A stretch of 64,000 bases of DNA. It comes from Clostridia bacterium (GTDB lineage: Bacteria; Bacillota; Clostridia; Oscillospirales; Acutalibacteraceae). The notes below the pieces were generated by a model. That model had not been told where the DNA came from and did no database searches. It saw nothing but the letters and a program-made list of their open reading frames with translations. The position numbers were made by a program, and so were the translations under genes. Position 1 is the stretch's first letter. Every line of letters begins with the position of its first letter. Below, piece by piece: positions 15,467 to 17,710 of this stretch. The stretch lies in contig JAFQJH010000016.1 of NCBI GenBank assembly GCA_017415025.1, positions 62,001 to 126,000 of the forward strand, written 5' to 3'.

Positions 15467-15907
15467 AAAAAAACGCCCCGACGGGCGCAAACATAAAAAG
15501 ATGTATAAAATTGAAATAACCCCTGACCGAATGTTTCTTTACACATTTTAGCCGGTCAAGGGTTATTTCTGTTCACTCTTGATATCTAACATCTTTTTAT
15601 ATACCTCTCTTTCTTAATCTAGAAAGCTCCCAAACTTCTCTGAATTAAATTCTGAAATGTTTTTTACGGTTATTGATCAATTACAAGTCTCCATTAACAT
15701 TTTAGAATTTTATTCTGATCGTTTAAGGATTCGCTCATTTTAATTTCAAAATCTGTTTTGATTCAAACTTAAAATTCTTTATACCACTTAAGTGTTGAGC
15801 TGTTTACTGACCACCTGGATTTTAAGTTGAGATCAGGGAACTGAATTTGATTTTAAAATGAAGCTTTGGTTGTTACCTGTTCATTGGTATCACCTGTTCC
15901 TTTCTGT
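15467..15907 (-). ncRNA. Putative structured noncoding RNA, about 440 nt
   Basis: On the minus strand an extended -10 element (TGG-TATATT, 15919-15914) lies at one end. At the other end is a clean intrinsic terminator: CGCCC-GTCG-GGGCG at 15487-15474 followed by seven T (15473-15467). Between them no frame is open for more than a few codons. Local stems include CTTTCT/AGAAAG near 15630, a self-complementary TTGATCAA, and a large nested hairpin near the 3' end. Promoter, terminator, structure and absence of coding capacity together suggest a large ncRNA; I cannot assign it to a known family from memory. The -35 region is weak. Confidence 0.45.
15493..15600 (-). repeat. Nested inverted repeat (108 bp)
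   Basis: Outer arms: a perfect 12-bp pair, ATAAAAAGATGT (15493-15504) with its complement (15589-15600). Inner arms: 17 bp with one mismatch (15513-15529 and 15553-15569), and within them a 5-bp AATGT/ACATT stem. On the minus strand a nine-codon frame (MLDIKSEQK) begins in the outer arm 9 bp after GAGAGG and stops in the inner arm. Confidence 0.75.
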
Positions 15908-16017
15908 GTCTATAATATACCACATCTGCAAGCAAAAATCTATTCGCAATGTTCAATAAAGTTAAAAGCCTCAAATTATGCATAACGCAGAAATCTTCTC
16001 CGAAGTCCTCAAAACCG

Positions 16018-16165: not shown

Positions 16166-16756
16166 ATGAAAAGAGTAACTGAACTTGACAGAGAAACACT
16201 AAAATATTATGCGCGGATGGCGGCGGAGAGCTTCGTTGACGATCCCGTGCATAAGTTTGCGACAAAAAACGTTGAGAGGCGAAAGAAATTCGTCTATCAC
16301 TTTCTGCTTGAGAGGCTCACGTCGTCGAATAAGTGCGACGTTTTCTACGTTGATGATGAGGCAAGGGCCTTGTGTGTCTGGCGCGATGCTCATAACGAGT
16401 ACACCGTGCTCGATTTTCTCAAATGCCCTAATTGGGTTTTCCTTTGCTATTACATAACGTCAACCGTTAAAACCCTGATGGCATACAGCCACCTCGATTC
16501 CAAGGTGTTTGAAAAAAACACGCTCATCATTTCGCCCGTTTTCGTTGACCCTCAGCATCAGGGCAGGGGAATCGCAAAGGAAATGATTAAAAAGGGCATC
16601 GAGGAGTTTGTTCCGCAGGGCTACAAAATCGGTCTTGAAACGCAGAATCCAGATAATGTCGGCTTTTATGAAAAGCTCGGCTTTAAAATCATCAAGGAAG
16701 AGTTTTACAAGCTCGAAAAAATCCACAACTACTATATGGTCTATGATAAGGAGTAA
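16166..16756 (+). CDS. GNAT family N-acetyltransferase
   Basis: A 196-residue acetyl-CoA-dependent acetyltransferase. Motif A is visible near residue 130 (VDPQHQGRGIAKEMI), and the C-terminal FYEKLGFKIIKEE is typical. An acidic N-terminus with DPVHKF resembles GNATs of the Ard1/RimI-like or polyamine type, but the substrate cannot be named. It precedes a second acyltransferase-type gene by 3 bp, suggesting a two-gene operon. Confidence 0.85.
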   Translation: MKRVTELDRETLKYYARMAAESFVDDPVHKFATKNVERRKKFVYHFLLERLTSSNKCDVFYVDDEARALCVWRDAHNEYTVLDFLKCPNWVFLCYYITSTVKTLMAYSHLDSKVFEKNTLIISPVFVDPQHQGRGIAKEMIKKGIEEFVPQGYKIGLETQNPDNVGFYEKLGFKIIKEEFYKLEKIHNYYMVYDKE

Positions 16757-16759
16757 TTT

Positions 16760-17710
16760 ATGAAAAACTATGATCACGCACTTCTCGTTATGGAAAAGCA
16801 GGACTATCCTGCCGAGGCAAGAGAGGTTATTATCCGTACCGAGGAGAAAATTCTCGCAGATGAAAAGGCAAACAAAATCTATGAGTCAATGTACCGTGCA
16901 TATTGGCTCAAGAAGAAGAATTTTGACCGCTTTTCAGATAAGGTGAAGGCTCTTGCCGAGCTTATCGGTGAGCACGAGCATACGGTTAAGCTTGTTCTTC
17001 TTATTAACTGCACAAAGCCGTTGCTTGCTCTTTATAAAAAAGAGGGTATCAGCGAGGATATTTATTGGAACACAATCATAGACCTCAAGGTCAAGATGCT
17101 TGAATGTATCGAAAATTACGGTGTGCCCGGAACATTTGTTGAGGGCTGGTTTATTCAGTTCTACACGCTCCGCCGTTTCGGTATCGGCAGATTCCAGTAT
17201 GAGCTTGCTGATTTCTGCGAGGATTATTACGAGGAGCACGGTATCGTACTCAAGGACAGCGAATTTGTGCTCGGTATGCATATTCCGTCTCATCTCGGCT
17301 CACTTGATGAAGAAACCCGTATGGATTCCTATAAAAAAGCTTATGAATTTTTCAAGGATAAATTCAACGGCGGTCCGATGGTTGTCTGCTGCGGCTCATG
17401 GTTGCTTTATCCCGACAACCTCAACATCCTTCCCGAAAAATCAAAGGTAAGAGAGTTTATTCTTGATTACGAGCCCCTTGATATCACACGCACCTACGAT
17501 TTCGGCGATGCGTGGCGTATTTACGGAGTTGAAAATGAGCATAAGAGAGTTCACGAGCTTCCCCGTAATACTAGTATGCAGAGAGCGTTTGCAGAGTGGT
17601 TTGAGCAGGGCAAAAAGTGCGGTCACGCTTACTGTATTCTCATCTTTGATGGCGAAAAGCTTCTTACAAGAAATACAAGAGAAGAATTCAAGGAAAAGTT
17701 CGGCTATTAA
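16760..17710 (+). CDS. Acyltransferase-domain protein (NAT_N/GNAT_C type)
   Basis: A 316-residue protein. The N-terminal 140 residues are helical, and the C-terminal part has the pattern of the two-domain N-acyltransferases annotated as NAT_N plus GNAT_C in Firmicutes (LGMHIPSHLGSLDEE, WLLYPDNLNILPEKS, RTYDFGDAWRIYG). The expected activity is acyl transfer to an amine, substrate unknown. The gene starts 3 bp after the GNAT gene behind AAGGAG and ends at a strong terminator, so the two acyltransferases are co-transcribed. Confidence 0.65.
   Translation: MKNYDHALLVMEKQDYPAEAREVIIRTEEKILADEKANKIYESMYRAYWLKKKNFDRFSDKVKALAELIGEHEHTVKLVLLINCTKPLLALYKKEGISEDIYWNTIIDLKVKMLECIENYGVPGTFVEGWFIQFYTLRRFGIGRFQYELADFCEDYYEEHGIVLKDSEFVLGMHIPSHLGSLDEETRMDSYKKAYEFFKDKFNGGPMVVCCGSWLLYPDNLNILPEKSKVREFILDYEPLDITRTYDFGDAWRIYGVENEHKRVHELPRNTSMQRAFAEWFEQGKKCGHAYCILIFDGEKLLTRNTREEFKEKFGY

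Follow-up and report, generated by a model that had tools for sequence, protein, structure and literature searches.

The window, that is, the whole stretch of 64,000 nucleotides analyzed here, carries on its minus strand what looks like a real transcription unit of about 440 nt, on what we consider a sound reading of the sequence. An extended -10 had been predicted at one end of it, and a GC-rich hairpin followed by seven T at the other. The first was found as TGTGG-TATATT at 15904-15923(-), and the RNA start is placed, as a likely position, near 15907, a few bases ahead of the first, strong ribosome-binding site. The second lies at 15488-15467(-) and is listed by the terminator scan. The convergent neighbor, also named in the original prediction, is a GT10 fucosyltransferase gene (PF18025, PF00852). 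The features of the unit are as follows.

15940..15993, minus strand: conserved upstream promoter region, with TTTCTGCGTTATGCATAATTTGAGG at 15969-15993 and TTTATTGAACATTGCGAATAG at 15940-15960 (alignments and listing of relatives)
15914..15919, minus strand: -10 element TATATT, preceded by TGTGG (sequence; kept within the genus)
15873..15905, minus strand: 5' module, AGAAAGGAACAGGTGATACC and then the minimal frame ATG AAC AGG TAA at 15884-15873 (site counts in 183 relatives)
15615..15872, minus strand: AU-rich variable middle, with two long imperfect stems in the window copy (alignments, length survey, folding)
15604..15614, minus strand: Shine-Dalgarno-like site AGAAAGAGAGG of the nine-codon frame (most columns nearly invariant in 77 relatives)
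15563..15592, minus strand: nine-codon frame MLDIKSEQK plus TAA (frame closure and synonymous excess in relatives)
15513..15569, minus strand: 17-bp hairpin with arms 15569-15553 and 15529-15513 (alignment of 77 relatives)
15491..15602, minus strand: outer helix, 15602-15587 with 15507-15491 (by eye in sequences of the genus; partly in the window fold)
15467..15488, minus strand: Rho-independent terminator, GC-rich hairpin GCGCCCGTCGGGGCG followed by T7 (terminator scan and sequence)

Promoter and terminator

The putative promoter was called from its conservation and not from the simple sigma-70 scan, which gave 4 sites against 3.0 expected. The promoter of the RNA is not among these sites because the window copy has no -35 recognizable by eye. 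In relatives, TTGAAA or TTGCAA stands at -35 with a spacing of about 17 nt to the -10 (by eye). Terminator-like sites number 2 between 15400 and 16200 against 0.4 expected, and the terminator of the RNA is one of them.

Inspection by eye of 133 sequences showed that many lineages have TTTCTGYGTTTTGCAYAAA and then TTTGTACAAA near the -35, ahead of TTGCAA/TTGAAA and TATAAT separated by about 17 nt, while other lineages have TTGACA at -35 and lack the conserved upstream region. The boxes upstream of the -35 suggest the site of a common transcription factor. The upstream promoter box has one exact match in the genome from which the window comes, and five further matches with 1-2 mismatches are followed by no similar promoter. 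A regulon sharing the box was rejected, since a second convincing site is absent from this genome; the single exact match and the lack of a second promoter point to one regulator that would act on the RNA gene. In many lineages TTTGTACAAA and TTTGCACAAA-like boxes are found about two helical turns apart, before the -35.

Relatives and distribution

A DNA search in 60 related genomes, including that of the window, gave matches in 14. Eleven of the 18 genomes of the same genus have a match; ten of these cover the greater part of the query with 68-85% identity (100% for the own copy), and the eleventh, in G010, is in two pieces. Partial matches were obtained in G035, of the same family, and in G058, of another family, and the match in G030 covers only 28 nt. 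A covariance model of the 3' module detected the RNA in 73 of 394 genomes of the order, distributed over 38 of 169 genera (E <= 0.01; a few are weak). A second, broader model gave matches in 20 of 391 genomes of a class sample, namely the own genome and 19 of other orders, and only in the own genome among the 299 of a phylum sample, both searches having stricter filters that lose weak matches. Conservation beyond close strains, on which the original prediction had staked its reading, is thus borne out by relatives in other families and in other orders of the class.

Some genomes have two to four copies (four in G288 and in G303). Tandem copies of divergent sequence, about 450-610 nt apart, are present in G082, G298, G373 and G359 (loci L045, L179, L174 and L054).

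An exact pattern matched at least 116 stretches in one genome collection, in which at least three assemblies occur twice. Among the stretches listed, all titles are those of MAGs or metagenome bins, most of them from Oscillospiraceae or Clostridia and many from ruminant gut sites. The RNA gene is carried by many gut bacteria. The same pattern had 0 matches in a viral contig collection. A viral origin was rejected on this count and because blastn gave no phage match. In the plasmid collection, blastn found one record, which belongs to the human isolate Vescimonas fastidiosa MM35 (NZ_AP023416.1, copy at about 65.1-65.5 kb). This copy has, by eye, the minimal frame ATG ACC TAA, a middle with CACGGCGGTGTTTAC, the peptide MLDIKSEG* and the hairpin. 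No protein gene is annotated there, in a gene table that omits RNA genes.

Minimal reading frames at the 5' end

The RNA had been predicted to have no coding frame. There is indeed no frame of at least 40 aa wholly inside it, but it contains two tiny frames preceded by Shine-Dalgarno-like sites, and both are conserved in the family. The first belongs to a motif that recurs in relatives between the promoter, which it follows closely, and the 3' module: GG...CC, then an ATG whose frame closes at 2-3 codons. For the counts, a site was defined as GG-N4-7-CC-N-ATG upstream of the 3' module, and 100 covariance-model hits were pooled with 144 pattern hits (244), leaving 183 non-redundant relatives with at least 600 nt of upstream sequence. 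They hold 184 sites, with 2 codons in 24, 3 codons in 137 and more than 3 in 23, so that 161 of the 184 are frames of exactly 2-3 codons. At least one such frame is present in 132 of the 183 relatives, 20 of which hold two to four, compared with 2 instances on the reverse strand and 2.25 +/- 1.6 in 20 dinucleotide shuffles. The other 51, G058 among them, have no minimal frame as defined here.

The early stop is specific to frame 0. A stop within four codons occurs at 1 of the 184 sites in frame 2 and at 79 in frame 1, 75 of these being the ATGA overlap. The second codons of the 161 minimal frames are of 19 kinds, and the stops are TAA (122), TGA (22) and TAG (17). With so many second codons and all three stops in use, it seems to be the length of the frame that is kept, and not its sequence or peptide. 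Third codons favor AGG (46) and AAG (29) among the 137 frames of three codons. Anti-Shine-Dalgarno pairing of the 22 nt upstream has a median of -9.5 against -4.9 after shuffling, a comparison that is partly circular because the site definition demands GG. By sequence alone these frames are minigenes, having two to a few codons and a ribosome-binding site of their own. Counted from the first base of the -10, they lie about 15-25 nt downstream (by eye), and therefore a ribosome there would cover the 5' end of the RNA.

These properties bring to mind a growth-control RNA, in which the minimal frames would act as minigenes and, when the promoter is switched on, tie up particular tRNAs by abortive translation and peptidyl-tRNA drop-off. 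Strong Shine-Dalgarno-like sites, 2-3 codons, TAA in 122 of 161 frames and the preference for AGG and AAG as third codons fit this idea, and toxic minigenes are described as short, with a strong Shine-Dalgarno and a UAA end (PMC8708949). However, most of the frames have three codons, their last codons are diverse, which disfavors a single target tRNA, and the conserved nonapeptide and hairpin described below would be left without explanation. We regard growth control as quite improbable.

Some RNAs begin with a series of two or three minimal frames (L028, L040, L092, L111, L136 and L161). In such series each frame has a separate ribosome-binding site, and the codons differ.

Nine-codon frame and 3' hairpin

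The second frame is also preceded by a good candidate ribosome-binding site, with anti-Shine-Dalgarno pairing at a median of -9.3 against -5.2 after shuffling (n=182). It closes at codon 8-12 in 98 of 100 distinct covariance-model hits, from a model that was itself trained on frame-containing sequences. These 100 hits derive from 129 matches, which were reduced to 105 places once antisense overlaps had been dropped. The 144 pattern hits were excluded from this count, since the pattern itself imposes both a start and a stop codon. Most peptides fit M-L-D-[I/T/N]-K-x-x-x-K, and distant copies read MIEPKSFGK, MLEPANNSIK and MSDPKETEE. Changes in length are whole codons in nearly all cases, and Leu is encoded by five codons.

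Synonymy was analyzed in 47 distinct ten-codon frames. Sequence pairs with a lone third-position difference were synonymous in 681 of 1121 cases against 443.5 expected, and those with a lone first-position difference in 67 of 400 against 37.2, in both cases for pairs that kinship makes non-independent and under an assumed base composition. A few frames are broken: in L047 a sense codon replaces the stop, in L231 and one L045 copy the reading frame shifts close to its end, and L228 lacks the ATG. Judged by this coding signature, the nine-codon frame is conserved as a peptide.

The frame ends within the 5' arm of the 17-bp hairpin, with its last codon and stop both in this arm. The hairpin is the single helix that RNAalifold returned on the MAFFT alignment of 77 relatives. 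Covariation, the check proposed for the predicted RNA, was positive here: two-sided changes occur at 17 of 17 pairs, 97.1% of cells are paired, and 0 of 500 shuffles reach any of five measures. When the partner was slid by 1-3 columns, pairing fell to 31-53%. Where the stop codon switches between TAA and TGA, the opposite arm changes with it, giving A-U in 41 and G-C in 27 sequences at columns 56/113. A script found the hairpin in 179 of the 183 instances, and a run of at least 4 T follows within 16 nt in 142 of these 179; the hairpin could therefore act as a terminator. In the window copy a second terminator lies 3' of it.

The outer helix would sequester the codon at which the nine-codon frame starts. 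It is not seen over this start in G058 and G035 and hence is not a feature of the family.

These data bear on two further explanations. In one, the RNA is a base-pairing or protein-binding sRNA, and what looks like ORFs in it would be untranslated RNA motifs or binding sites for 30S subunits. The strong covariation of the 3' hairpin agrees with it, and, by eye, a tiny hairpin could arise from the GG...CC ahead of the minimal frame, but a frame-specific stop, the use of all stop codons, the synonymous excess and length changes in codon-sized steps are hard to reconcile with untranslated motifs, and we consider this sRNA improbable. In the other, the RNA is the mRNA of a small peptide, with the nonapeptide as product (a signal or regulator) and the minimal frames merely tuning its translation. 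The conservation of the peptide across families speaks for such an mRNA, as do five compact copies that retain little beyond the minimal frame, the nonapeptide frame and the hairpin. On the other side, the hairpin sequence seems conserved beyond the needs of a terminator, and no recurring exporter, peptidase or receptor gene is found near the pattern-derived loci. A small-peptide mRNA is in our opinion unlikely, although less so than the other alternatives.

Variable middle

The middle of the RNA is roughly 260 nt long in the window. Between the minimal frame and the second ribosome-binding site lie 11 to 881 nt in 131 instances, with a median of 244. This distance is 11-37 nt in the five compact copies, and the middle is nearly absent in G010 (L012). 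The middle is therefore dispensable, or the five copies are decaying. In an alignment of relatives, both ends of the RNA are nearly invariant and the middle is not.

The RNA had been predicted to be a large structured ncRNA, of a known class such as OLE, GOLLD, ROOL or HEARO or of a new one. The window copy does fold strongly: the whole RNA has an MFE of -123.2 and a z of -7.69, and without the 3' hairpin z is -4.48, with 0 of 100 shuffles as low in either case (dinucleotide shuffles for the whole RNA). In ten sequences of the genus, 8 of the 50 pairs predicted over the whole RNA show two-sided changes, six of them in the middle. In contrast, the middle of 103 relatives has a median z of -2.0 against -2.6 for the flanking stretches, a strict control that includes neighboring terminators. 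A family-wide structure of the middle was accordingly rejected as not above this control, and the idea of a large structure suits the window copy at best, not the family.

Neither the RNA of the window nor that of 20 relatives scored at the gathering threshold of any Rfam family; the only matches were a tRNA elsewhere in the window and, in the relatives, T-box and tRNA, both outside the RNA. A permissive scan of the window region gave sub-threshold matches only, and those that were microRNA-like were dismissed as expected from any long hairpin. Membership in OLE, GOLLD, ROOL or HEARO was thus not upheld. Sequence comparison does favor the other half of the proposal, a new, conserved and self-contained RNA gene. 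The label of a large structured ncRNA misfits the family, in which two sets of tiny frames and one hairpin are conserved around a middle of very unequal length. A ribozyme or other large structured RNA of the OLE/GOLLD/ROOL type could still draw on the length of about 440 nt, on the fold of the window copy and on a middle element shared by about 27 relatives, but five copies nearly without a middle, z values no better than those of the flanks and the lack of an Rfam match make it very improbable, and we take it as largely refuted.

As to this element, CGGCGGTG matches 30 times in the middles of relatives, and about 27 share an element like ACACGGCGGTGT..ACGC..ATATAGA, possibly a small RNA motif of its own. 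Forms like ACACGGCGGTGT-(T/A)-ACGC-N4-ATATAGAT are found in several families, for example in L032, L036, L041 and L050, and also in L254 at 2935-2957.

Gene neighborhood and tmRNA

Neighbors were compared among the pattern-derived loci, using 899 frames of at least 70 aa located up to 5 kb away, or as far as a shorter locus extends; in loci of about 3 kb, genes upstream are covered over about 1.5 kb only. No widely recurring protein family was detected in this set. The largest cluster spans 9 loci, where its members flank the RNA on one side or the other, and corresponds to the family of the window neighbor at 16760. By context, the RNA gene appears to be free-standing. Short frames like those of leader peptides, followed by a terminator-like hairpin, would also suit a leader or attenuator that acts in cis on the gene downstream. 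No downstream gene recurs in the same orientation, however, and the next gene in the window is convergent, so that a leader is hardly credible.

tmRNA has a short frame ending in a hairpin, and the RNA resembles it in this respect. It differs in that it has no match to RF00023 or by ARAGORN. smpB was undetected in 9 of 40 genomes, and tmRNA over the cut-off was undetected in 11 of 60. Both were undetected in G000, G003, G004, G006, G010, G011, G012 and G014 (own genus) and in G038, all of which except G011 carry the RNA, whereas G007, G016 and G040 have both smpB and tmRNA although their completeness is similar or lower. This is suggestive of either a shared real loss in the nine genomes or a systematically missing stretch. 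Among 69 carriers of the RNA (73 minus the genome of the window and the weak matches in G080, G377 and G423), 51 have a tmRNA. The possibility that the RNA replaces tmRNA was dropped for this reason, and also because the genomes are incomplete and smpB and tmRNA are adjacent in several of them.

Comparison with known RNAs and proposed function

The bar RNAs of phage lambda are minigenes with a strong Shine-Dalgarno. Another minigene, mg2, is found in the axe-txe operon, and its authors proposed that ribosomes stabilize the mRNA (PMC8708949). The RNA shares with bar and mg2 frames of two or a few codons, strong Shine-Dalgarno-like sites and, for mg2, the proposed protection by ribosomes (PMC8708949). 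Those minigenes lie within or before ordinary genes, whereas the RNA forms a stand-alone family across many genera. SgrS/SgrT is a dual-function sRNA with a small frame. Like SgrS/SgrT and VcdRP (PMC8672173), the RNA has a stand-alone gene that holds a small frame, but the peptides of these systems are longer, VcdP having 29 residues (PMC8672173). By sequence and context, the gene has what defines a dual-function sRNA, namely a stand-alone position with promoter and terminator and the coding signature of a small frame. To our knowledge, no dual-function sRNA has frames of 2-3 codons at its 5' end. OLE, GOLLD, ROOL, HEARO and raiA/ModT are long, intergenic and have their own promoter and terminator, as does the RNA. 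The large structured core of these ncRNAs was not found in it; its conserved core is small and partly coding, and it lacks an Rfam match.

We know of no nameable kind of RNA with conserved frames of 2-3 codons as its main feature, and for this reason we rate the RNA as probably new in kind; counted simply as a family of RNA genes, it would just add one more. Among the papers that searches of the PMC literature listed, no title or abstract start describes this RNA or a family with conserved 2-3-codon frames, and large supplementary motif lists (e.g. PMC8040213) may hold candidates. The RNA is likely to escape gene finders, for which its frames are too short, as well as ncRNA pipelines, because its conserved core is small and partly coding.

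The anatomy, with minimal frames at the 5' end, a variable middle, a nine-codon frame and a covarying hairpin, is well supported by the comparisons above. Translation of both frames seems probable on the same grounds, and the conserved parts give hints of an unusual use of ribosomes. We favor, with a nearly even chance of being right, a dual-function RNA gene that stands alone under its own promoter and amounts to a micro-operon, in which the minimal frames would hold ribosomes at the 5' end and the nonapeptide and hairpin would be the core. RNA decay by RNase J/Y in Firmicutes depends on the 5' end. Ribosomes would start on the minimal frame, stop almost at once and return repeatedly to the 5' end, and there they could shield the RNA from such decay, an idea modeled on the proposal for mg2 (PMC8708949). 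The nonapeptide-hairpin module would be the functional core: translation of the frame to its stop inside the hairpin would decide whether the hairpin forms, and its formation would lead to 3'-end protection, termination or access to a target. The same translation would release a small charged peptide. More tentatively, the RNA may represent a new class of RNA genes, in which minimal frames are the selected coding content and serve as a renewable ribosome cap or throttle, in combination with a nonapeptide frame that ends in a switchable 3' hairpin. Ribosomes would be loaded on purpose at the 5' end, join two or three residues and be released. Minimal frames are usually taken as noise or as laboratory toxins, and in this family they are retained with a length of two or three codons; the RNA allows a direct test of whether start-and-stop translation controls RNA lifetime in bacteria.

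Elsewhere in the window, at 16166-17710, two adjacent acyltransferase genes lie in the same orientation, one for a GNAT acetyltransferase and one for a NAT_N/GNAT_C protein.
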